Shown piece by piece: positions 9,419-35,933 of a stretch of 35,933 bases of DNA. The notes under the pieces were generated by a model. The model did not search any database. It was not told the origin of the DNA and saw only the letters and a list, made by a program, of their open reading frames with translations. Numbering within the stretch: position 1 is the first letter of the stretch; each line of letters starts with the position of its first letter. The stretch spans positions 1-35,933 of the forward strand of contig JAUXWO010000044.1 of NCBI GenBank assembly GCA_030680175.1, in the 5' to 3' direction. A program made the translations under genes and the position numbers. The DNA comes from Vicinamibacterales bacterium. Lineage in GTDB: Bacteria; Acidobacteriota; Vicinamibacteria; Vicinamibacterales; UBA2999.

Positions 9419-9554
9419 TTTCGCTGTTCGCTGTTCGCTGTTCGCAATTCGCTGTTCGCTGTTCGCTATTCGCAATTCGCTGTTCGCAGTTCGCAGTTCG
9501 CTATTCGCGATTCGCTGTTTGCTATTCGCGATTCGCGAGTCGCTGTTCGCGATT
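9419..9554. repeat. TTCGCTG heptamer array directly before the asd start codon
   Basis: About nineteen tandem 7-bp units (TTCGCTG, TTCGCAA, TTCGCAG, TTCGCTA, TTCGCGA) end 2 nt from the asd ATG. There is no Shine-Dalgarno sequence in the array. All units keep the TTCGC core and vary in the last two bases. It lies between the leader terminator (9562-9594) and the gene. Confidence 0.93.
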
Positions 9555-9561
9555 GCCCAAC

Positions 9562-9594
9562 AAAAAACCCGCCGGCGGGAAGGTCCGCGGCGGG
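9562..9594 (-). terminator. Intrinsic terminator in the asd leader
   Basis: On the minus strand CCCGCCG (9594-9588) pairs with CGGCGGG (9574-9568), followed at once by six T residues (9567-9562). It lies upstream of asd in the same direction with no gene to terminate except a possible 31-codon leader, so it most likely works as an attenuator. Confidence 0.75.
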
Positions 9595-9603
9595 TCGCTG
9601 TGT

Positions 9604-9648
9604 GGCCCTGAGGGCCGGTCGATTCAGTGGTGCTCTACTGAGCCGGCC
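9604..9648 (-). promoter_or_regulatory. Overlapping alternative hairpins in the asd leader
   Basis: Hairpin 1 pairs 9613-9618 with 9643-9648 (GGCCGG/CCGGCC), with an inner TCAGT/ACTGA stem. Hairpin 2 is the palindrome GGCCCTGAGGGCC at 9604-9616. They share 9613-9616, so they cannot both form. With the terminator just downstream this resembles a transcription attenuator. It does not match the T-box or lysine riboswitch consensus that I know. Confidence 0.55.
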
Positions 9649-9730
9649 GCAAGGGCACGCTTCCCGACGCGGACGTGGCCCGCTTAGCCGTGAGCCGCTT
9701 TCGCGACGGGAAGAAATGTCCGAGGGCCAT
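9635..9730 (-). CDS. Possible 31-codon leader peptide of asd
   Basis: The minus-strand frame ATG 9730 to TAG 9635 encodes a short basic peptide starting MALGHFFPSRKRLTAK. Its stop codon falls in the loop of leader hairpin 1, as expected of an attenuator peptide. A TATACT -10-like box (9747-9742) lies about 12 nt upstream, so the transcript would be nearly leaderless. Against this, no ribosome binding site is present and only two Lys and two Thr codons occur, with no run of a regulatory amino acid. It is hypothetical. Confidence 0.25.
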   Translation of the reverse strand: MALGHFFPSRKRLTAKRATSASGSVPLRPAQ

Positions 9731-9750
9731 GAGCGAGAGGAAGTATACAT

Positions 9751-9946
9751 CAGGTCTTCACAGGTCCGGACAGGTCCGGACAGGTCCGACGGGTCCGGAC
9801 GGGTCCGACGGGTCCGGCGGGTCCGGCGGATCCGGCGGGTCCGATCTGCCATTCGCACACCTCTGGACCTGTGAGGACCTAACGGACCTGTCCGGACCTA
9901 TCGGACCTGTGAAGACCTGGCCGGACCTGTCGGACCCTGATCGACC
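9751..9946. repeat. Palindromic CAGGTCCGGA tandem-repeat element
   Basis: Left arm (9751-9847) has nine to ten copies of a 9-10-bp unit, from ACAGGTCCGG grading into CGGGTCCGG. The centre (about 9848-9868) is unique. The right arm (9869-9946) carries the unit in reverse complement (CGGACCTGTC). The segment CAGGTCTTCACAGGTCCG near the left end recurs inverted near the right end (rc of 9886-9918). It lies between the asd leader promoter and the antitoxin promoter, which are divergent. Confidence 0.9.
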
Positions 9947-9979: not shown

Positions 9980-9987
9980 TTCAGTTG

Positions 9988-10371
9988 ATGACACCTGTGG
10001 CACGCACGTCTGGGGCGGTGGCGCCGGATCCGGCGGCGGTGCTGGGCAAGGCCCTGTTGTCCGCGGCCGGGCGGCTCGGGCTGCGGCCGCGGCAGATGGC
10101 CGCGATCCTCGGCGTCAGTGAGGCGTCGCTCTCACGCCTGCAGCGCGGTCGCGGGATCGACCCCGGCTGCAAGGAAGGCGAACTGGCACTGCTCTTCCTC
10201 CGGATGTACCGCAGCCTGGATGCGCTGGTGGGGGGCGACGACGAGCGCGGGCGCGCGTGGCTGCATGCCATGAACGACCACCTCGCCGCCGTGCCGGCCG
10301 AACGCATCGTGACCGTCGAGGGCCTGGTCGATGTCGTCCAGTATCTGGACGCAATGCGCGGGCGCCTCTAG
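9988..10371 (+). CDS. Xre/MbcA/ParS-type antitoxin (DUF2384)
   Basis: Antitoxin of a type II Xre-RES module, expected to bind and neutralise the RES toxin and to repress its own promoter. The 127-residue protein has an Xre-like helix-turn-helix region (about 30-55: LRPRQMAAILGVSEASLSRLQRG) and the C-terminal toxin-binding DUF2384 region (about 60-125), with LFLRMYRSLDALVGG and the family's AWL motif near HAMNDHL. ATG 9988 is preferred over TTG 9985 because the -10 box puts the transcription start at about this point. The RES gene follows after 78 nt containing a strong hairpin. Identification rests on family pattern and genomic pairing. Confidence 0.87.
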   Translation: MTPVARTSGAVAPDPAAVLGKALLSAAGRLGLRPRQMAAILGVSEASLSRLQRGRGIDPGCKEGELALLFLRMYRSLDALVGGDDERGRAWLHAMNDHLAAVPAERIVTVEGLVDVVQYLDAMRGRL

Positions 10372-10397
10372 TGGGGTGTCGTTGACGATTTACTACC

Positions 10398-10418
10398 GGG
10401 CCGCCCGTTGGGCGGCCC
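10398..10418. terminator. Perfect hairpin between antitoxin and toxin genes
   Basis: GGGCCGCCC (10398-10406), loop GTT, GGGCGGCCC (10410-10418): a 9-bp uninterrupted G/C stem in the 78-nt gap. There is no U-tract, so it may attenuate rather than fully terminate, lowering toxin output relative to antitoxin, or it may protect the upstream mRNA end. Confidence 0.6.
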
Positions 10419-10449
10419 GCAGGATCGCGGCTGAGCAGAGGCGCTGGTA

Positions 10450-11184
10450 GTGCCTCTGCAGTCGATACACTCCACTAGACGTCGCCCGCTCCGGCTGACG
10501 ACGTGGCGCGTCGTCGAGGCGCAGCACCAGGTCTCGACGCGCAAGCTGGTGGACACGCTCGAAGAGCAGGCGCTTCTCGAGGATCTGATCGACTCCGCCA
10601 AGCCTCCGAGCCGGCACCCCCGGCTGCACTACCTGCTGTCCACCCCGTTCCGCTACCCGCCGCTCCGGCATGGATCGCGATTCGGTACGCGGCACGCCCC
10701 GGGCCTCTGGTACGGATCGGAATCGGCGGCCACCGCCTTCGCCGAGGTGGCGTACTACCGGTTCGTGTTCCTCGAGGGCACGCACGCGGACCTCGGCGCC
10801 GTCACCACCGTCCTCACGGCGTTCACGGCGCGGGTGCGCACCGAGCGCGGGATCGATCTCACGGCCCGCCCGTTTGCGGCGCACCGTGCCGTGCTGGCCT
10901 CCCCCATCTCGTATGTCGACACGCAGGCGCTCGGCGGCGCGATGCGCGAGGCCGGGGTGGAGGCCGTGCGCTACCACTCGGCGCGCGCCGACGGCGTCAA
11001 CGTAGGCGTATTCGCGCCCCAGGTGTTTCGCGGCGTCGTGCCGCGCACGCTCGAGACGTGGCACTCGGTGGCGGCATCCCACAGGGTGGAGCTCGTCCGC
11101 CGCGACTACTTCACGCCGGCGCAGCACACCTTCGCCCGGGACGCATTCCTCGTCGACGGCCGCCTTCCCGCCCCTGCGCTGTAG
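10450..11184 (+). CDS. RES-domain toxin (probable NAD+-degrading)
   Basis: Toxin partner of the Xre-type antitoxin. Characterised RES toxins break down NAD+ by phosphorolysis or glycohydrolysis, which stops growth. The three residues that name the domain are visible at plausible places: R77 in SRFGTRHAPGLWYG, E99 in AFAEVAYYR, S177 in RYHSAR. The protein has 244 residues, slightly long for the group because of an N-terminal extension of about 70 residues. The start is GTG 10450, the first start codon after an in-frame stop at 10432; no ribosome binding site is evident. The catalytic set appears intact, so it should be active if expressed. Confidence 0.87.
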   Translation: MPLQSIHSTRRRPLRLTTWRVVEAQHQVSTRKLVDTLEEQALLEDLIDSAKPPSRHPRLHYLLSTPFRYPPLRHGSRFGTRHAPGLWYGSESAATAFAEVAYYRFVFLEGTHADLGAVTTVLTAFTARVRTERGIDLTARPFAAHRAVLASPISYVDTQALGGAMREAGVEAVRYHSARADGVNVGVFAPQVFRGVVPRTLETWHSVAASHRVELVRRDYFTPAQHTFARDAFLVDGRLPAPAL

Positions 11185-26543: not shown

Positions 26544-29500
26544 TCACCGCTCCCCGTCCACAATCCGCATCGCCATGTCCTCGACCGAGTAGACGCGCAG
26601 GCCGTCCACCCAGAGCCAGCCGTTGGCCACGGCGTACGCGCCGCGGTCGTCACGGCCGACTTCCGTGATCTCGATCTCGGTGAGGATCGTCTTGTTGCGG
26701 GGCACGACCTGGCCGCGGTACTTCCAGCTCATCGGCCGGCCGATGGCGATGGGCTCGAAGCGCGGCGCCGTCATGCCGGCGCCCATGTCGCGGTCGAGCA
26801 TGTGGAACTGCAGGAGCTGGATCAGCGCCTCGATGCCGAGCGAGCCCGGCTGCACGGGGTCCTGGAAGAAATGCGCCTTGAAGAACCACTCCGACGGCTT
26901 CACGTCCTTCTCGGCGCGCAGCCGGCCCAGCCCCTTGGCGCCCGCCTCGGGCCAGATGCCCGTGACGCGGTCGATCATCAGCAGCCGCTTGTCGGGCAGG
27001 CGCAGCGACCCGCTGCAGTACCGCGCCGGCCGGCTCGTCAGATCCTCGAGCCGATCGCTCGACGCGCTCACCCACACCCGATCCGCATCGGTCGTCGGCA
27101 GGCCCTTCTGGTTGGACAGCGCCTCCGGCGAGAAGTGGCCGAACTTCGTCGTGAACTCGTAGACCGGCACATCGTCGAGGTAGCAGGTGCCCTTGAAGCT
27201 CTCGAGGAACATGCCGGGCATCGTGGCCACCGCCGTGCAGCGCGTGTGCGTGCGAAGCGTGCCCGAGTCGGGCAGGATCTCGACGAGCTGCGTCGCCGTG
27301 CCCTCGAGGTTGCGGAACGCAAGGTCCGTCTCGCTCGCGAGCGGCGCGCCGCTGTACGCCGTGAGCCAGCCGCATGGCTGAAGCGCGGCCTCGAGCAGCA
27401 CGGCATAGGGCATCGTCTTCGCCCCGTTGGCGTCGAAGTACCACGCGGTCGGTGACACGTCGAACTCGAGGTCGACGGCCGCGCCCTTCTCGAACACGCC
27501 GTAGGCGCCCTCGACCTTCGTCACGCGCGACATGAAGAGATACGGCGGACCCGGCAGCCGCGGCAGGCGGCGCGTGCCGTCGAACCGCGTGAACGCCTGG
27601 CCGAACGCCTCCGAGGGCTTGCCCCACGCGCATGCGAGCAGCGAGCGGCTGCCGAACTGGAAGCCGTCCACCTCCGCGACCGGCCGGCCCGGACGGTCGG
27701 GGATCACCTGATCCTCGCGCGTCGAGAGCGGCCAGTCGGGCACGAGGCGCAGGCCCATGCGGCGGCAGTGGAACGCCTTCAGGCCGTCGACCGTGCCGAG
27801 CAGGTCGGCATAGATCGTCGGGTAGGGTCCGTCGGTGACCTCCTCGACGAAGAGCTCGCAGACGACGTCCGGCGACGTCGGCAGCACCTGGCCGCGGCAC
27901 CGCAGCAGGTACTTCTCCTCGGGCACCGGCTCGAACTGCCAGCCGTCCTTCTCGAGCGTGTAGCCGAGGCCCGTCAGGTAGAACGCCATCAGTTCGAGAC
28001 AGCCCTCGAACATCAGCGTGCCCGGCATGCACGGGTCGTTCTTGAAGTGGCCCTGGAAGAACCAGTCGTCGGGCGAGATGCGCGTCTCGGCGCGGCAGTA
28101 GCCGCGGCCCCACGGCCCGCCCGTGGGATCGAAGTGGGTGACCTCGCTGAGCAGCAGCATCTGGCCGCCCTGGATGCGCGGCGACCGCACGTGCGTCTCG
28201 GCGTGCTCGAAGCCGGGGCCGAAGCAGTCGAACGGCCGGCCCGCGGCAAACGCCTCGAGCTCACGCGGGCCGAAGTGCGTGCGCGTGCACGGCACGGCGG
28301 GCGGCGCCACCGGGCAATCCGGGAGCGGCGTGGCGGTGTTGATATCCCACAGCACGCCGCCCGACTCGGCCAGGTCGCGGTCGCTGAAGAAGCCGGCCTG
28401 CCCCTGCCGCACGCTGAGCCGCACCTCGTCGTTGACGCGGCAGTCGTAGTGGAAGAAGAACAGGCGCACGTCGCCCTGGCTGGCGTGGCCATCGACATGG
28501 ATGTCGTACTTCAGCGTGTCGCCCACGCGCGGCAGGCCGCCGTGATACGTCAGCTCGCACCCGAGCAGGCGGTAGACGCGCTCGCCCTTGTTGAGGAAGT
28601 CGGCGCCCATCCAGGAGATGAGCAGCAGATCGGCCTGGCCGGCTTCGATCATGATGCCGGCCGGCATCCGCCCGTCGTTCAGATACCACGCATCCGGCGT
28701 GACATCCGTCTCGGTCCAGATCGTCCCCGTGCCGTGGACGCCCGGCTCGGCATCGATGCCCGTGACGCGGTCGGCGAGCAGCAGCGGCGGCTCCGGCATG
28801 CGCACCTGACGCCGCCACTGATCCTGCTGCTCGAAGAGCGGCCCGAAGAGCGACGAGATCTTGCCCGACGACAACACCTCGAGTTCCTGGCGGTTGAACT
28901 TGGGGCCGGGGAGTGTGGTGGACAGTGCACGGTGCACGGTGGACGGTGCAGGGTCGGTGACCGGTGCACGGTGAACGGTGGACGGTGCCACCTCGGTGAC
29001 CGGTGCACGGTGAACGGTGGGCGGTGCCACCTCGGTGACCGGTGCACGGTGGACGGTGGACGGTGCGGCCTGCACCACCGGCCGGGTCGCGTCGACTACG
29101 CCGGCCTGCCCGGCTCGGGCAAACGCGGCCGGAGTCGCGTCGTAGCCCGTCTGCCCCGCCCGGGCGAACGGGCCCTCCGGGGCGCCGAAGCCCGGGGTCT
29201 GTCCGGCCCGGGCGAAGGCGGCAGCGGCATGCTGCATGTAGCTCTGCTGCGCGTGCGCCACGCGCGCGACCATCGTCATGTACTGGTCACGCAGGTTCCG
29301 CTGCCACTCCGACACGTCCGCCTCCATCTCACTTGCACTCGAGACAGGCCCCGCGGCCGCCCCGACCATCTCGAACACCGGCGCTGGTGCGAGCGCGCGT
29401 ACGGGCTCGGCCAGCGTGGCGAAGACCGACGGCAGCGCTGGCGCCATGGCCATCGCCTGCCGCGACTCCCCGGACGCGGAGACCTGCGCGGACACGGCCG

Positions 29501-32500
29501 CCGTACGCGGTGCCGGCAGGCGCACGGGCGCGGGATGCGCCGGCAGCACCGTCACCGGCCCGCGCGGCGCCTCGGCCCAGCGCGCCACGTCATCGAGCGC
29601 ACGGCCCAGCCGCGCGCGATCCACCGGCACACCGGCCGCAATCAACTGCGCCGCGGCGCGCACGGCCTGGATGAGCGACGGCTCGCTCGCCGTGTCGAGC
29701 GCCACGGCCAGATGCTCGCGGTCGCCGAGAATCTCGCGTGCGAACGCGGCACAGCCCGCCCGCGGGCCGTGCTCGATGAACACGCGCACGCCGTCGTTCC
29801 AGGCGGCCTCGATCACCTTCGGAAACTCGATCGTCTGCACGGCCTGCTGCGTCAGCATGTCCGCCACCGCATCGTCGCCCAGCGCGAAGTGCGAGTTCGT
29901 GGCGTGCGTGTAGAAGCGGACGCCCGGCACCGGACGCGTCGGGCGGCGGTGCACGGCGTGCCAGGTCTCGCCGAAGGCCTTCAGCTCCGGGCAATGCACG
30001 GCGACGTTGTAGCGCACGGGGAACGCGCGGGCGCCCTCGAGCTTCGCCACCACGCGCGCGCATGCGGCCGCCTCGCCCGCCACGATCAGGTCCGCGTTGG
30101 TGTGGACGATCGTGATGTGCGCGCGTGTCTCGCCCTCGAGCGCCTTGCGCACCGCGGCGATGGGCGCCACCACGCGCCAGGTCTGCCAGGTCGCGGCTTC
30201 GGCCTCGGTCGAGCCCCAGGCCCGCGCGATCGCCTTGAAGTTGCCCGCGATCTCGTGATCGAACGCGCCCGTGCCCAGGAACGCGTCGTAGAAGATGTCG
30301 AGGTCGCCCCACGCGCCGAGCGCGAAGAGCGCGGTCGTCTCGCCCGACGACAGCCCGATGGCGGCGTCCGGCTTCAGCCCGAGGATGTCGCGCGAGAACG
30401 CCGCGTGGAGGTACGAGACGAACGATCCGCCCTTCAGCCGCTCGGCGGGCGAGATCTCCTCGGGGCCGTCGGCCTCGAAGATCCAGCCGGCCACCGTGCG
30501 GTTGCGGTGCATCAGCGCGGTCGTGCTCGAGAGCAGCGACGGGAATGCGGCGATGACGTCGCGCGCCATGCCGCGATACGAGCCGCCGGCGCCGCCGAAG
30601 ATGAAGCCCACCTCGCCGCCAATCGGCCGGTCGCGGAAGTACAGCCCGTCCTCGATCTGGAACGGCACCGCGCCATCGCCCGCGGCGGTGATGACCGCAA
30701 CGGCCGCTTGCGCTTTGCGCGCGCGTTCCGTCTCGTCGGCAGCCACGACCACCAGGCACGCCGGGCCCTCGCTGGCGCGATCGTCCCGCTCGGCCGCCGC
30801 AATCACCGCGCGCCGATCCGCACCGGCATAGGCATGCACGCGCGGCACGATCGGGCGCGCCAGCGGCGCCGGCGGCGCGGCCGCCTCCACGAGGTGCACG
30901 ACCGCACGCTGTCCGCCGGTGGCGTCCATGGCTACCGTCACCGCACGGCGCTCGGTATCCGCCAGCCACGGCGTGACGACGCCCCCGCGCGCGACCGGGC
31001 GGAGCCGGTGATGCAGGGCGAGCGCGCCCGCCGCGACATGCACGAGGCCCGAGGCCGCATGCGCATGCCCGACGACCGGCACGAGCGAGGTCGCGCCCTC
31101 GTCGAACCCGAGGCGCAGGTCGGCGCCCTCCGGCTCTTCGTCCGGAAGGATCGCGTAGACGCGATCCCCGTCCCGCTCCGCATCCTCGAGCCGCTTGAGC
31201 ACGAGCGCGACGGCGGCATCGCCCGGCACCTGCCGGTCGGCGGCGAGCACCTCGCGCGCGGCAGCCTGATGCACCGGCTCGCACGACAGATCCACCGCCC
31301 CCACGACGGCGGCGTCGATCTCGCCGGCGCGCAGCGCCCCGATCGCCTCATCGAGGGCGACGAGGCCCGAGACCTCCTCGGCCGCCACGGAGAAGCTCTG
31401 CCCCGTCAGATCGAACTGGCTGTTGATGCGGTTGGTGACGATGTTGGGCATCATGCCCACGACCATCGCCGCGTTCAGCCGTGGCGCAATCGCGTCCTGC
31501 GTGGCCGGTGTCAGCACGCCCCCGGCGGGCACGCCGTTCGCCGTCCACTGCTCCACCCAGCCGGCCAGGCGCTCGCGCACGCCCATGCGCGCGATCTCGT
31601 TGTCGCAGCCCATGCCGACAAACGCGCCGGTGCGCGCCGCGGGCAGCACCGCCACGTCGGCGATCGCCTCGGCGGCCGCGCGCATCACGAGCAGCTGCTG
31701 CGGGAGCGTGTCGGCCAGATCGCGCGGCGGGAAGCGCAGCCCGGTCAGCGGCAGCGTCACCGTGCCGGCCGGCGCGCCCGATGCGTCGCGCACGGGCGCC
31801 GCGCCGGCGAAGATCGCATCCGCGAAGTCGTCGCGGCTCTGTCCCGCGCCGACCCGCGCACCGACGCCGACGATGGCGACGGGGCCGCGGCCGGGGGCGG
31901 GGCTGTGCACCGCGACGAGGGGCCGGGAGGGCTGCCACTCCTCGACGAGCAGGTGCGCGTTGTTGCCGCCGAAGCCGAACGCGCTCACCGCCGCACGGCG
32001 CGGGCCATCCGACGGCCACGGCTCGGCCTCCGCGAGGAGCCGGAACGGCGATCCCGCCAGCGCGTCCACGGGCTGGTCGGCCCACAGCGTCGGCGGTCGC
32101 GTGGCGTGCTCGATCGCGCCGAGCACCTTCAGCAGGCCGCCGAGGCCCGCCACGGTGATCGCGTGGCCGAGGTTCGACTTGAGCGATCCGAGCGGCACGC
32201 CGGCCTGCCCGGCATACACGCGCGACATGCTGCGGACTTCGGTGGCATCCCCCACCACGGTGCCGGTCGCGTGGCACTCCACGAGCGAGATGTCGGCGGG
32301 GGCCAGCCCCGCGATCTCGTACGCGCGCTCCATCGCGCGGACCTGGCCCTGCTCGCTCGGGACGAGCAGGCCCTGTGCGCGGCCGTCGTTCGACAATCCG
32401 ATGCCGCGGATGACGCCCAGAATCCGATCGCCATCCCGCACGGCATCGTCCAGCCGCTTGAGCACGACGAACGCGGCGCCCTCGGCGGGCACGAGGCCGT

Positions 32501-33263
32501 CGGCCTCGCGATGAAACGGACGGCTGCGGCCGCTCGGGCTGAGCGCCTGCAGCGCGCTGAAGCCGGCATGGATGAAGAGGTCGTCGCAGCGGTTCACGGC
32601 GCCCGCGAGCATGATGTCGGCGCGGCCCGTGTGGAGCCAGCCGCAGGCCAGCTTCAGCGCGTAGAGCGACGACGCGCACGCGGCATCGAGTGCGTACGCG
32701 CCGGCGTCGAGGCCGAGCGCGCGCGCGAGCATGTGGGCCGGCAGGCCCGACGAAAAGCGATTCTCCGCCGCGGGCCGATCGACGCCGGCCGCCACGCGCG
32801 GATCCAGAGGCGCCCATGCCTCGCGCTGCGCGTCGAGCCAGTACGCCTCGGCGAAGCGCACCTGGTACTCGCTCGGGTAGCACAGGTTGCCCATGATGGC
32901 GCCGGTGCGCGCGCCGGACGGCACGGCGTCGTAGCCGGCGTCGGCCAGGGCGGCGCGTCCCGTGTGCAGCACCCAGCGGAACGCGGGATCGAGCCCCGCC
33001 ACGAGATCCGCGGGCACATGGAAGCCCGTCGGATCGAACTGCGCGTCGAAGCCCTCGACGTAGCCACCGCGCCGCGAGCTGATGCGCGTGCCGGCGCCGG
33101 CCGGGTCAGCGGTGATGAAGCGCGCGGGCAGGCGCCAGCGGTCGTCGGGGCACTCGGTGAGCAGGTCGGTGCCCGCGACCACCCGGTCCCACAGCGCCTG
33201 CGGGGACGGGGCGCCGGGCAGCAGGCAGGATCGTCCTACGATCGCGATCGGCGGAAACGGCAC
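26544..33263 (-). CDS. pfaC: PUFA-synthase subunit, KS-CLF-AT-DH-DH (PfaC/Pfa3-like)
   Basis: A 2239-residue multidomain synthase. Domains seen in order: ketosynthase (1-445) with C196 in DAACASSL, H331 in ECHATGT and H367 in SNLGHA; chain-length factor (about 461-795) with the Cys replaced (SFSVAAEE); acyltransferase-like (about 883-1190) with S972 in GLSSGE, where the usual GHSxG His is Leu; a repeat-rich linker (1290-1455); then four hotdog folds forming two double-hotdog dehydratases. In each pair the second fold has the catalytic His: H1739 in WFFQGHFKNDPCMPG and H2131 in WFFKAHFFQDPVQPG; the first fold has none. RMPEPPLLLADRVTGI marks the dehydratase start as in PfaC proteins. An AT between CLF and DH is known from myxobacterial Pfa3. 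The start is GTG 33263, 1 nt after the upstream stop. No C-terminal acyltransferase is present. Product unknown; long-chain polyunsaturated or related lipid likely. Confidence 0.85.
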   Translation of the reverse strand: MPFPPIAIVGRSCLLPGAPSPQALWDRVVAGTDLLTECPDDRWRLPARFITADPAGAGTRISSRRGGYVEGFDAQFDPTGFHVPADLVAGLDPAFRWVLHTGRAALADAGYDAVPSGARTGAIMGNLCYPSEYQVRFAEAYWLDAQREAWAPLDPRVAAGVDRPAAENRFSSGLPAHMLARALGLDAGAYALDAACASSLYALKLACGWLHTGRADIMLAGAVNRCDDLFIHAGFSALQALSPSGRSRPFHREADGLVPAEGAAFVVLKRLDDAVRDGDRILGVIRGIGLSNDGRAQGLLVPSEQGQVRAMERAYEIAGLAPADISLVECHATGTVVGDATEVRSMSRVYAGQAGVPLGSLKSNLGHAITVAGLGGLLKVLGAIEHATRPPTLWADQPVDALAGSPFRLLAEAEPWPSDGPRRAAVSAFGFGGNNAHLLVEEWQPSRPLVAVHSPAPGRGPVAIVGVGARVGAGQSRDDFADAIFAGAAPVRDASGAPAGTVTLPLTGLRFPPRDLADTLPQQLLVMRAAAEAIADVAVLPAARTGAFVGMGCDNEIARMGVRERLAGWVEQWTANGVPAGGVLTPATQDAIAPRLNAAMVVGMMPNIVTNRINSQFDLTGQSFSVAAEEVSGLVALDEAIGALRAGEIDAAVVGAVDLSCEPVHQAAAREVLAADRQVPGDAAVALVLKRLEDAERDGDRVYAILPDEEPEGADLRLGFDEGATSLVPVVGHAHAASGLVHVAAGALALHHRLRPVARGGVVTPWLADTERRAVTVAMDATGGQRAVVHLVEAAAPPAPLARPIVPRVHAYAGADRRAVIAAAERDDRASEGPACLVVVAADETERARKAQAAVAVITAAGDGAVPFQIEDGLYFRDRPIGGEVGFIFGGAGGSYRGMARDVIAAFPSLLSSTTALMHRNRTVAGWIFEADGPEEISPAERLKGGSFVSYLHAAFSRDILGLKPDAAIGLSSGETTALFALGAWGDLDIFYDAFLGTGAFDHEIAGNFKAIARAWGSTEAEAATWQTWRVVAPIAAVRKALEGETRAHITIVHTNADLIVAGEAAACARVVAKLEGARAFPVRYNVAVHCPELKAFGETWHAVHRRPTRPVPGVRFYTHATNSHFALGDDAVADMLTQQAVQTIEFPKVIEAAWNDGVRVFIEHGPRAGCAAFAREILGDREHLAVALDTASEPSLIQAVRAAAQLIAAGVPVDRARLGRALDDVARWAEAPRGPVTVLPAHPAPVRLPAPRTAAVSAQVSASGESRQAMAMAPALPSVFATLAEPVRALAPAPVFEMVGAAAGPVSSASEMEADVSEWQRNLRDQYMTMVARVAHAQQSYMQHAAAAFARAGQTPGFGAPEGPFARAGQTGYDATPAAFARAGQAGVVDATRPVVQAAPSTVHRAPVTEVAPPTVHRAPVTEVAPSTVHRAPVTDPAPSTVHRALSTTLPGPKFNRQELEVLSSGKISSLFGPLFEQQDQWRRQVRMPEPPLLLADRVTGIDAEPGVHGTGTIWTETDVTPDAWYLNDGRMPAGIMIEAGQADLLLISWMGADFLNKGERVYRLLGCELTYHGGLPRVGDTLKYDIHVDGHASQGDVRLFFFHYDCRVNDEVRLSVRQGQAGFFSDRDLAESGGVLWDINTATPLPDCPVAPPAVPCTRTHFGPRELEAFAAGRPFDCFGPGFEHAETHVRSPRIQGGQMLLLSEVTHFDPTGGPWGRGYCRAETRISPDDWFFQGHFKNDPCMPGTLMFEGCLELMAFYLTGLGYTLEKDGWQFEPVPEEKYLLRCRGQVLPTSPDVVCELFVEEVTDGPYPTIYADLLGTVDGLKAFHCRRMGLRLVPDWPLSTREDQVIPDRPGRPVAEVDGFQFGSRSLLACAWGKPSEAFGQAFTRFDGTRRLPRLPGPPYLFMSRVTKVEGAYGVFEKGAAVDLEFDVSPTAWYFDANGAKTMPYAVLLEAALQPCGWLTAYSGAPLASETDLAFRNLEGTATQLVEILPDSGTLRTHTRCTAVATMPGMFLESFKGTCYLDDVPVYEFTTKFGHFSPEALSNQKGLPTTDADRVWVSASSDRLEDLTSRPARYCSGSLRLPDKRLLMIDRVTGIWPEAGAKGLGRLRAEKDVKPSEWFFKAHFFQDPVQPGSLGIEALIQLLQFHMLDRDMGAGMTAPRFEPIAIGRPMSWKYRGQVVPRNKTILTEIEITEVGRDDRGAYAVANGWLWVDGLRVYSVEDMAMRIVDGER
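28923..29062. repeat. In-frame CGGTGNN/39-bp tandem array inside the PUFA synthase
   Basis: The stretch encodes about four copies of a 13-residue unit (STVHRAPVTEVAP) at residues 1402-1448. At DNA level it is built of CGGTGCA, CGGTGAA, CGGTGGA and CGGTGCC heptamers, a composition like the intergenic arrays. It lies in the linker before the first dehydratase, where length change is tolerated. Confidence 0.85.
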
Positions 33264-33264
33264 G

Positions 33265-35933
33265 TCAGCGAGCCCCGGCAGCCTGCTGGCTCGACTTCGA
33301 CGCGGGGAGCATGTGCATCTCGAGGTCGGTCATCGATGCGACGGGCGTGCCCTTCGCATCCACGACGAGCAGGTTGACGGCGAGGCCGTGCTTGCCGGTG
33401 ACGCGGCCTTCGAGCACGCAGGTCAGCGCGCCGTCGACCGGCCCGGTCTGCCACTGGCGGAACGTGCCGATGCGCGTCGGCAGCGACAGCCGGCCGAGAC
33501 GGTGCAGGCCCCAGACCTGCGCGAGCTGCACGGCGCCGTCGAGCGCGGCCACGTCGGTCGCGTACGGTCCGCCGATCCAGTGCTGGGCCGTGACGCCCTG
33601 CAGCGTGCCGACGAGTCCCTGATCCGACACGCCCTCGACGCCACGAATCACCTGGAACTCCGGACCGTGAAACAGCAGCTCGCCGTAGATGTCCGACGAG
33701 GTCCAGCGGCACGCTTCCAGGGTGCCCGCCGACAGCACGGGCGGCGCCAGGCGATGGCTGGCGGGGCCGAGGGTGACGACGGCGCCGTAGTGGCGCGTGC
33801 CGTCGGCGCCAACAAGCGCGGCGGTCATCACGACCTCGCGGCCCTTCGGCTGGGCGTCGAGCGTGACGGTGAACGCGTGGCCGCGGCCATCGAAGTCCGG
33901 CAGCGGGATCCCCTTGTAGACCCGCAGGTCATCGCAGGCGATCACGGCCAGGTCCGGCCGCTCGGCCGCCGCGGCGCTCAGGATCCACTCGAGCGCGAGC
34001 ACGGCCGGGACGACGGCATCACGCTGGATGCGGTGGCCGGTGAGGAACGGATGGCTTGCCGCGTCCACGGTCACGGTGTGCGTGCGCGGCCCCACCGGCT
34101 GCGACTCGCCGCTCAGCAGCCCGCCGATCACCACCTCGACATCGTCGGACGGCGCCGCGGCGAGTTCCTCGCAGAACATGCGGGCGCCGGTGGCGACGGG
34201 GATGAGCGACACGCCGCGCTTGCCGAACTCGGCGGCGAGGGCGGGCGTGACCATGCCGCCTTCCCACGGGCCCCAGTTGATCGACTTCACGAGGCACGCG
34301 CCCTTGCGGCGGCGCTGCTCGCGCGCGCCCACCTTGTTGAGCACCTCGTTGGCCATCGCGTAGTCGGACTGGCCGGGGTTGCCGGCGCGCGCCGCGACCG
34401 ACGAGAAGAGGCAAATAACGTTAAGCGGATCGCCGGCGGTCGCCTCGAGCAGCGCGCGGAGGCCATCCACCTTGGTGCCGAAGACGAGATCGAACTGCTC
34501 GACGGTCTTGTCGGCGAGGCGCTTGTCGGCGAGGACGCCGGCGCCGTGCACAAGGCCCGTGATCGGCCCCCACGCGGTGCGCACCTCGTCGAGCGCCGCG
34601 CCGAGCGCGGCGGCGTCGCGGACATCCACCGGGACGTAGCGCGCGGGCGAACCGGCCGCCTCGAACGCGGCGAGCGTCTCGCGCACCTCGCGGGAGCGGA
34701 GGATGCCGTCCACCTGCCGGCCGAGGTCGGCGGGACGCAGCATCTCACCGCGCGCCTTGGCATCGGCGAGCAGCGCCTTCTTGAGCGCCGCATCGCCCTC
34801 GACGCCGCGGCAGGCCGCCGGTTCGTCGGCGAGCGGCGTGCGGCCGAGCAGCAGGATGCGCGGCTGCGCGCGGCGGGCCAGTTCCAGCAGCGACGCGGCG
34901 GTCACCCCGCGCGCGCCGCCGGTGGCGACGATCACGCTGGTCGCGTCCACGCGCGGTGCCGCTTCGACGACGGGCTCGGCCACGGAGACGAGCGTCGTGC
35001 GGCGGCCGTCCTTGTGGAGGCCGACCTCGAGTTCGTCGCCGCCCGCAATGATCTCCTGCAGCACGGCCGCCGCGAGCTTCGCGGTGGGCCGGCGGCCACG
35101 CTCGAGGTCGATGGCCTTCGCGCGCACTGCCGGCCACTCCTGCGCGGCGGTCTTCACGAGCGCGGCGAGCCCCGCCGTCCACACGGTATCGGCGTCCACG
35201 CCGCCGACGCCGAAGCTGCCGCCGGTGTCCTGCACGGTCACGAAGAGGCCGCCGTCGGCCGACGCACGCGCCGCAAAGGCCTTCGCCGCCTGGAAGGCGC
35301 GGCGATTGATGGCGAGGGCCGTCGCCGCGTCCGGGCACGCACGCAGGCCATCGAGCAGAATCACGCCCGCGGCCTCGGCCGGGACGGCTTCGACGATGGC
35401 CACGCGCACGCCGCTGGCCTCGAGCTTCTCGGCCAGCGCGCTCGCCACGCCGTGCCCATCGTCGGTGATCGCGACGAGCCCCGTGCCGACCGCGTCGAGC
35501 ATGGAGCGGCCGCTCGCGGTGGCCACCGCTTCGCGTACGACGAAGCGTCCCGCACGCTCGGACACGGGCTCGGCGGCCGTCTCGCGCGGCGCACTCGGAC
35601 CGGAGGGCGTCGTCGGTGCGGGGTCCGTCGGCGCCCCGGTCGTGCGCCCGAGGTACTCGACGATCTCGCGGAGGGTCCGGACCGCGGCCATGTCGCTCGG
35701 ATCGACCTCCGGCAGGTGCGGCGCGGCCGACCGCATCGCGGCGAGGATCTCGACGCGCTTGATCGAATCGACGCCGAGGTCCGCCTCGAGCGCCATGTCG
35801 AGCTTCAGCATGTCGACCGGATAGCCGGTCTTGTCGGCGACGACGGTGAGGAGCAGCGCGCCGAGGTCCTCGGCCGCCGCGGGCGCGGCGGACGAAGCGG
35901 ACGGGGCGGCCACCGGCGCGGCGGCGGCGGCCG
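33265..35933 (-). CDS. pfaA: PUFA-synthase subunit, ACP-KR-DH part (PfaA-like, N-terminus off window)
   Basis: The frame is open to the right edge, so the usual KS-AT-ACP N-terminal part lies outside; about 889 residues are visible. Counting from the GTG-encoded Val at 35913 as residue 1: an acyl carrier protein with S50 in DLGVDSIKRVEIL, the PUFA-synthase version of the phosphopantetheine site; a ketoreductase region (about 120-610) with TGGARG (331-336), HGAGVLADK (456-464), and the SSVAARAGNPGQSDYAMAN segment (S504, Y518); then a dehydratase-like domain (about 611-870) with HPFLTGHRI (621-629). Ala/Pro-rich sequence before the ACP suggests that further tandem ACPs lie upstream. The stop is 1 nt from the next gene's GTG start, so the two subunits are translated together. 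Identification by family motifs is strong. Confidence 0.9.
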   Translation of the reverse strand, partial: AAAAAPVAAPSASSAAPAAAEDLGALLLTVVADKTGYPVDMLKLDMALEADLGVDSIKRVEILAAMRSAAPHLPEVDPSDMAAVRTLREIVEYLGRTTGAPTDPAPTTPSGPSAPRETAAEPVSERAGRFVVREAVATASGRSMLDAVGTGLVAITDDGHGVASALAEKLEASGVRVAIVEAVPAEAAGVILLDGLRACPDAATALAINRRAFQAAKAFAARASADGGLFVTVQDTGGSFGVGGVDADTVWTAGLAALVKTAAQEWPAVRAKAIDLERGRRPTAKLAAAVLQEIIAGGDELEVGLHKDGRRTTLVSVAEPVVEAAPRVDATSVIVATGGARGVTAASLLELARRAQPRILLLGRTPLADEPAACRGVEGDAALKKALLADAKARGEMLRPADLGRQVDGILRSREVRETLAAFEAAGSPARYVPVDVRDAAALGAALDEVRTAWGPITGLVHGAGVLADKRLADKTVEQFDLVFGTKVDGLRALLEATAGDPLNVICLFSSVAARAGNPGQSDYAMANEVLNKVGAREQRRRKGACLVKSINWGPWEGGMVTPALAAEFGKRGVSLIPVATGARMFCEELAAAPSDDVEVVIGGLLSGESQPVGPRTHTVTVDAASHPFLTGHRIQRDAVVPAVLALEWILSAAAAERPDLAVIACDDLRVYKGIPLPDFDGRGHAFTVTLDAQPKGREVVMTAALVGADGTRHYGAVVTLGPASHRLAPPVLSAGTLEACRWTSSDIYGELLFHGPEFQVIRGVEGVSDQGLVGTLQGVTAQHWIGGPYATDVAALDGAVQLAQVWGLHRLGRLSLPTRIGTFRQWQTGPVDGALTCVLEGRVTGKHGLAVNLLVVDAKGTPVASMTDLEMHMLPASKSSQQAAGAR

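Follow-up and report, generated by a model that had tools for sequence, protein, structure and literature searches.

Introduction

The thrL and hisL attenuators of enterobacteria place a short leader peptide, rich in codons for the product of the pathway, before a biosynthetic operon, together with alternative protector, antiterminator and terminator helices and a U-rich terminator. Control of this sort over lysine genes is, in well-studied bacteria, the work of a riboswitch; the lysine riboswitch (L-box, RF00168) often acts by premature termination and senses lysine by RNA alone, with no leader peptide.

A 2005 survey describes, in the portions of its text drawn on here, leader peptides before amino-acid genes of the tryptophan, cysteine and branched-chain pathways in Actinobacteria, and no conserved RNA element before the histidine, threonine, lysine or methionine operons of these bacteria; in the same portions lysine and methionine genes are placed under riboswitches, and attenuators are tied to histidine, threonine and phenylalanine (PMC1262725). 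A 2010 survey of premature terminators predicts attenuators in Acidobacteria, almost none of them with an associated function in the excerpts used here, and the words "lysine" and "asd" are absent from its main text (PMC2965389). No published lysine or methionine leader-peptide attenuator was found in the open-access literature.

Here we describe a candidate attenuator before asd in a 35,933-nucleotide stretch of DNA from a soil bacterium of the Vicinamibacterales (GCA_030680175.1, contig JAUXWO010000044.1), referred to below as the window. Like thrL and hisL, its leader has product codons, alternative helices and a U-rich terminator before a biosynthetic operon; it differs from them in matching no Rfam leader family, in apparently reading mainly Lys, and in coming from another phylum. 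The leaders of its order also start 6-13 nt after the -10 element, with no Shine-Dalgarno (SD)-like site in 66 of 67, and the Lys codons they are proposed to sense are mostly spaced by Arg and not arranged in runs. With the lysine riboswitch the element shares the control of lysine genes, but the riboswitch needs no leader peptide whereas the window element has one. With the attenuators of Actinobacteria, as far as the consulted part of that survey describes them, it shares a setting in high-GC bacteria and leader peptides before amino-acid genes (PMC1262725). The element is very probably a transcription attenuator that works through a translating ribosome, as in the classical trp, his and thr operons, but placed before lysine genes.

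A leader element upstream of the asd block

The asd gene (TIGR00978; 8368-9417, minus strand, ATG at about 9417) is the first gene of a minus-strand block, asd-lysC-dapB-dapA-dapD followed by an ArgE/DapE-like gene, that extends down to 2849; the genes were assigned by NCBIfam, the last one below its families' curated cut-offs. Upstream of asd and on the same strand, a -10 element TATACT (9747-9742) is followed after 11 bases by the ATG (9730-9728) of a 31-codon frame, MALGHFFPSRKRLTAKRATSASGSVPLRPAQ (9730-9635), which closes with a TAG stop codon (9637-9635). Codons 10-11 of this frame are CGA-AAG (Arg-Lys; 9698-9703) and contain the first conserved Lys codon, recognized by the in-frame bias of CGAAAG in relatives; codon 16 is a second Lys codon, AAG (9683-9685). 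The best -35 of the window leader is weak, with 3 of 6 matches, and a simple consensus scan listed neither a sigma-70 promoter nor a terminator at the leader.

Folding assigns region 1 (9702-9713) as the 5' arm of a protector whose partner is 9671-9660, a pairing also backed by the co-evolution of strands 1 and 2 described below. Region 2 (9660-9674) is a shared strand, acting as the protector 3' arm (9671-9660) or as the antiterminator 5' arm (9674-9663), and region 3 (9583-9594) is both the antiterminator 3' arm and the terminator 5' arm; the former rests on folds, shuffles and strand swaps, the latter on folds and shuffles. The overlap between protector and antiterminator spans 9671-9663, and that between antiterminator and terminator spans 9594-9583. 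The terminator hairpin (3:4; 9596-9566, -22.5 kcal/mol, z -4.37) runs into a T6 tail (9567-9562). None of 200 dinucleotide shuffles folded as well as this hairpin, the protector (9713-9660; -30.2 kcal/mol, z -4.36) or the whole element (z -4.45), and the same was true (0 of 200 shuffles) of the antiterminator stretch with the stop-codon hairpin included (9674-9583; -50.1 kcal/mol, z -4.47). That hairpin, which has the stop codon at its loop (9648-9613), is weaker alone (4 of 200 shuffles as good, z -2.57) and is also seen in an alignment of 22 leaders from one other family. The order claimed in the first-pass annotation, with TATACT, a 31-codon frame, mutually exclusive hairpins and T6 before asd, was thus confirmed by the sequence and by folds against 200 shuffles. 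Its remark that the frame has no run of Lys or Thr codons is literally correct, but the two Lys codons at positions 11 and 16 occupy sites that are conserved in relatives.

Searches of Rfam at gathering and permissive thresholds gave nothing credible at the leader site; matches there to the small RNA CC1840 and to microRNAs lay far below their cut-offs and were discarded. The lysine riboswitch (RF00168), T-box and Thr_leader are all absent among the 14 Rfam matches with E up to 10, which bears out the earlier judgement that the element fits neither the lysine riboswitch nor the T-box pattern. Across the order, the lysine riboswitch was found in none of 161 genomes, and 4 of 14 control genomes were positive.

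The leader lies intact between two repeat arrays. A 131-base array of 7-base TTCGCTG repeats (9420-9550) separates the terminator from asd, and 9-10 base repeats, GGTCCGGACG and GGACCTGTCC, occupy 9763-9940 on the other flank; other short repeats adjoin the asd leader in some relatives, such as CCCCAGAA in G030. Beyond the upstream array, a divergent gene pair on the plus strand (9985-11184) with Xre/MbcA/ParS antitoxin and RES domains is likely a toxin-antitoxin pair adjoining the lysine block. Elsewhere on the minus strand, the window holds a small SRP RNA (1261-1358; RF00169, 66.3 bits) and two long multidomain synthase genes (26544-35913) with ketoacyl synthase, FabA-like, KR and dehydratase domains, which resemble a polyunsaturated fatty acid or polyketide synthase.

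Occurrence of the leader in relatives

A DNA search with the element at E <= 0.01 matched 12 of 59 genomes including the window's own, or 11 of 58 relatives. Seven of the matches, from six relatives, are immediately upstream of asd (G001, G025, G029, G030, G034 twice and G041); the best is in G034, with 69% identity over 147 bases (E 8.8e-9). Of 104 asd upstream regions collected across the order, at least 67 show these parts in the same succession, and they span 11 families and 37 genera. This count is a lower bound. Leaders were chosen by the presence of CGAAAG or by visual inspection, which covered 15 of the 37 regions with no listed leader; two of the 104 regions are shorter than 200 bases (G158, G148), and at least one missed leader, in G102, was later found by the model R1 described below. 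Excluded beforehand were asd matches at contig ends or with the start inside the gene (G021, G065, G103, G108, the second piece of G109, G123, G136, G151 and the second piece of G158).

Outside the order, inspection by eye of 32 asd upstream regions, a subset of 157 matching outside-order genomes with two from the same class, revealed no leader. Among 80 named loci, the 10 closest carry it (CGAAAG before a terminator), including an Acidobacteria "gp6" genome; in 4 of these 10 the T-run of the terminator is broken and was missed by the search pattern. A pattern scan of the other 70 loci showed no CGAAAG in the leader arrangement before a terminator.

A -10 element matching TATACT at 5 or more of 6 positions precedes 53 of the 67 leaders, and 14 have none that good. 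In all 53 the distance from -10 to start codon is 6-13 nt, most commonly 9 nt (22 of 53); a good -35 is present as well in 23 of them. An SD-like four-mer was present before one of the 67 leader frames. Transcription typically starts 6-7 bases downstream of a -10 element, and leader mRNAs with the observed spacing are therefore predicted to be leaderless or nearly so.

The compact fold (z -4.45), flanked by a -10 element and a terminator, could also belong to a free-standing small RNA that has its own promoter and terminator and lies before asd by chance, and part of the element weakly resembles the Caulobacter small RNA CC1840 (23.0 bits against a cut-off of 50, E 0.81). Against this stands a conserved reading frame, with 75 in-frame copies of CGAAAG and a single out-of-frame copy across the 67 leader frames, as well as the persistence of the element before asd in 11 families and of sister elements before other biosynthetic genes. 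We consider a chance neighbour of this kind very improbable, and a 6S-like or other free-standing RNA, suggested by the fold, was dropped on the grounds of the frame and the synteny.

In one relative, G120 (L048), a TATAAT -10-like element and the terminator are retained before asd and the leader frame is absent, a natural deletion. This genome and the 131-base array between terminator and asd are compatible with a constitutive terminator that belongs to another gene, the asd promoter lying inside the array (9420-9550). Such an arrangement is highly unlikely: the xre-like gene on the far side (9985-10371) points away, a constitutive terminator would not account for the conserved leader frame or the antiterminator, and in several relatives, among them G051, G071 and G075, asd starts less than 60 bases from the terminator. 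Transcription attenuation is the reading pursued below.

Pairing and co-evolution of the strands

Compared with dinucleotide-shuffled leaders, the cognate 2:3 duplex scored a mean z of -1.59, with p <= 0.05 in 30 of 67 leaders; in the window alone it is unexceptional (29 of 200 shuffled leaders as good) owing to the high GC content of the region. When 37 leaders were aligned by sequence, RNAalifold returned six terminator pairs only, with a covariation term near zero, and did not recover the protector or the antiterminator; MAFFT probably fails to align the non-terminator helices across families. We used an alignment-free test in its place, in which pairing strands are swapped between leaders.

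Strand swaps between genera cost a mean of 5.1 kcal/mol per leader for 1:2 and 3.3 kcal/mol for 2:3. For 37 genus representatives, none of 1000 permutations was as good as the cognate arrangement in either pairing (median p 0.001 in both). For 11 family representatives, the swap loss was 6.1 kcal/mol (1:2) and 3.4 kcal/mol (2:3), and the largest p in 200 resamplings was 0.005 and 0.012, respectively. Because between-genus swaps weaken both pairings, the protector and antiterminator strands appear to co-evolve; within one leader family the pairing strands vary little. The first-pass annotation had held that an absence of compensatory change in relatives would count against attenuation, and this check, run alignment-free by strand swaps, left the reading unrefuted, both pairings being weakened.

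Leader codons and the position of the ribosome

Among the 1784 leader codons, 152 (8.5%) specify Lys, whose share in nine window genes is 1.8%, a 4.8-fold enrichment; Thr is enriched 2-fold and Arg 2.4-fold over the same genes, the latter to 18.0% of leader codons. The peptides diverge widely outside the Lys positions. Some asd leaders are Lys-rich (G114 CKQKKSKRDLRKR, G090 LKKSKCIGRKR), and others are rich in Thr and Ile (G037 MTRTIITITVTTRKR) or in Met (G104 AAAMRMMAMRMTGIGGG, G038 TMSMPMMAMRMTSIGG), families f3 and f4 having Thr/Ile-rich and Met-rich asd leaders.

We modelled the consequences of ribosome position by folding the RNA downstream of a ribosome placed on each codon in turn, with the transcript ending before region 4. 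With the ribosome at the first Lys codon, the mean probability that region 3 is paired upstream is 0.77 (> 0.5 in 63 of 64 Lys-containing leaders); at the second Lys it is 0.69 (> 0.5 in 47 of 53), and at the stop codon 0.32 (> 0.5 in 15 of 67). The corresponding values for the window are 0.75, 0.75 and 0.22. Taking as boundary the codon at which a ribosome first encroaches on region 2 (0.6 of the maximum, one fixed setting), we found it 0 or 1 codon past the last Lys in 37 of 64 leaders, with a Lys one codon past the boundary in 6 more. In the window the boundary is codon 17, adjoining Lys 16. Lys occupies 97 of 447 codons (0.217) in the last seven before the boundary versus 55 of 1248 (0.044) elsewhere, and Thr shows no such concentration (0.114 in both zones). 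Arg is concentrated there more weakly than Lys (126 of 447 versus 187 of 1248) and so could be a co-signal.

The repeated and conserved Arg-Lys-Arg, in leaders with 18.0% Arg codons, raises the alternative of nascent-peptide arrest. Basic peptides are able to slow ribosomes, and on this reading the binding of lysine, arginine or a polyamine would halt such a peptide inside the exit tunnel, with no wait for a charged tRNA. However, the peptides diverge widely outside the Lys positions, these positions follow the antiterminator boundary and not the peptide end, and the sister leaders described below swap Lys for Met, Thr, His or Phe according to the pathway, which fits codon reading. Peptide arrest is in our estimation hardly probable, and codon reading by an attenuator is preferred.

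The question of the signal, left open in the first-pass annotation, can be regarded as answered by comparison, to the extent that sequences allow: the control position is occupied by Lys codons, and other families have leaders rich in Thr or in Met. Lys-tRNA would be the main signal in the window species, to which Thr, and perhaps Arg, may add.

Sister leaders before other amino-acid genes

Model R1, built from 37 asd leaders only, was run over the 161 genomes of the order and matched at E <= 0.1 in 102 of them; the asd leaders of the training set, being circular, were left out of the test. We examined 45 R1 places away from known asd genes. A leader with an identifiable gene was present at 37 of these, 6 appeared to be chance matches (G045, G094:C196, G123, G063, G066:C47, G156), and at 2 the contig end truncated the locus (G082, G103). 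A further dozen or so matches were set aside, one strong at a contig end (G065:C799) and the rest weak. Leaders were found before lysC, dapB, lysW, hom, thrB, metY, hisI, pheA and the E. coli-type asd.

Ten representative downstream proteins were checked by NCBIfam, whereas the remaining genes took their names from inspection of the translated sequences. Eight of the ten exceeded their curated cut-offs: aspartokinase, homoserine dehydrogenase, LysW, LysX, O-acetylhomoserine sulfhydrylase, gamma-type asd, dapB and hisI; homoserine kinase thrB (E 3.3e-42) and chorismate mutase/prephenate dehydratase pheA (E 1.8e-90) fell below theirs.

The codon content of these leaders follows the pathway. His leaders contain 26.2% His (n=8), with His runs before hisI, thrB leaders 23.7% Thr (n=2), the metY leader 23.8% Met (n=1), hom leaders 19.8% Met (n=4; Met was set as the cognate residue of hom after the leaders had been inspected), the pheA leader 11.5% Phe (n=1) and Lys-gene leaders 7.1% Lys (n=21), Lys codons being found in those of lysW, dapB and the E. 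coli-type asd. The cognate residue averages 14.0% versus 5.2% with shuffled labels, with 0 of 5000 shuffles as high; one frame (G131), mis-called from a truncated match, lowers this cognate match. Since R1 was trained on leaders that mostly read Lys, its matches had not been chosen for their content of His, Met, Thr or Phe. Several of the matches are weak, with E from 5.5e-5 to 0.085 for the eight His leaders and 0.024 for pheA, whose start codon falls outside the match. In the window's own genome, a His-rich leader, MSVVFTHHLVHHHRSTSGPAGLRA, stands upstream of hisI, with a GC-rich hairpin and T5 after it, and no leader was found before the best hom, thrB, pheA and metY relatives.

Before the gamma (E. 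coli) class asd of three genomes (L257, L263 and L264, in G105, G044 and G107, respectively; one of the three proteins NCBIfam-checked), the leader is of the Lys type and seems therefore to have outlived a replacement of the enzyme class. Leaders of RKRK type occur before lysW-lysX (L275, L277, L280, L291 and L292, family f14; and L295 in G131); these genes represent the LysW lysine route, within the same order as the window, which has dap genes.

Leaders of lysC with one Lys codon or none occur in G068 and G069, with none in G004 and G013. The aspartokinase leaders L269 (G068, TATKTSMRNRTMRIR) and L270 (G069, STTTMRNCITRIR) carry Thr, Met, Asn and Ile codons, and apparently sense several aspartate-family amino acids at once. 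These two leaders, together with the 2-fold enrichment of Thr and the Thr/Ile-rich and Met-rich asd leaders of families f3 and f4, speak for a variant of the same attenuation mechanism in which the main signal is a mixture of Lys, Thr and Arg or translation in general. We regard this variant as rather unlikely, its probability overlapping with that of the preferred reading. Thr is flat across the boundary zones whereas Lys is concentrated (0.217 versus 0.044), the gene block of the window is a lysine block, and it is RKRK-type sequences that the leaders of lysW-lysX, NCBIfam lysine biosynthesis proteins, carry. Attenuation with Lys as the main signal is kept for the window.

CGA before the proposed sensed codon

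CGA is used for 9 of 396 Arg codons in nine window genes versus 106 of 322 in the asd leaders, where 76 of the 152 Lys codons directly follow it. Sister leaders of the aspartate family use CGA for 31 of 109 Arg codons, and 27 of these 31 precede AAG, ATG, AAT, ATT or ATC; in His leaders CGA accounts for 1 of 24 Arg codons. The bias may make the next codon more sensitive to tRNA supply: with CGA in the P site, the following codon would be decoded more slowly or less firmly, and the ribosome would depend all the more on the supply of the tRNA for that codon. The bias may equally reflect some property of the RNA in the loop that joins strands 1 and 2, or be left over from common ancestry.

As the amino acid sensed before one and the same gene, asd, has apparently switched between lineages, the leader would work as an evolvable codon cassette. 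We put forward tentatively, as a possibility that is on balance doubtful, a wider picture in which the order uses near-leaderless leader peptides of its own, and not riboswitches, for aspartate-family pathways, the asd signal has switched between lineages (Lys, Thr/Ile, Met), and CGA serves as a sensitivity amplifier.

Proposed mechanism and significance

The proposal that transcription of the lysine block is attenuated, already made in the first-pass annotation, draws support from conservation, strand co-evolution, the position of the Lys codons and the pathway-matched sister leaders. Translation of the leader and termination in the cell are inferred. In the proposed mechanism, transcription would begin just ahead of the leader ATG, giving a leader mRNA almost without a 5' UTR. 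When Lys-tRNA is short, the ribosome would wait at the AAG codons 11 or 16, where it would cover region 1 and free region 2 to form the 2:3 antiterminator; this would block the terminator, and asd through the ArgE/DapE-like gene would be transcribed. When lysine is plentiful, the ribosome would pass region 2 and reach the stop codon. With region 2 covered or paired with region 1, the 3:4 terminator would form and transcription would end at T6. The classical attenuation scheme wants termination when no ribosome translates the leader; in an equilibrium model with no ribosome, which ignores folding order, the antiterminator still prevails in 49 of 67 leaders, that of the window among them.

The mechanism itself is known. 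What would be new, judging from sequence comparison, is its Lys-reading, near-leaderless leader, the switching of the signal between families, and a rare CGA before the sensed codon. If true, the range of amino acids read by leader peptides would extend to lysine, and in some families to methionine. Functions would also be given to attenuators in a phylum where, according to the part of the 2010 survey drawn on here, almost none had one (PMC2965389). The same gene with a different sensed amino acid across families would amount to many natural experiments, and the pattern of CGA before the sensed codon poses a concrete question on how codon context may bear on the sensitivity of an attenuator.
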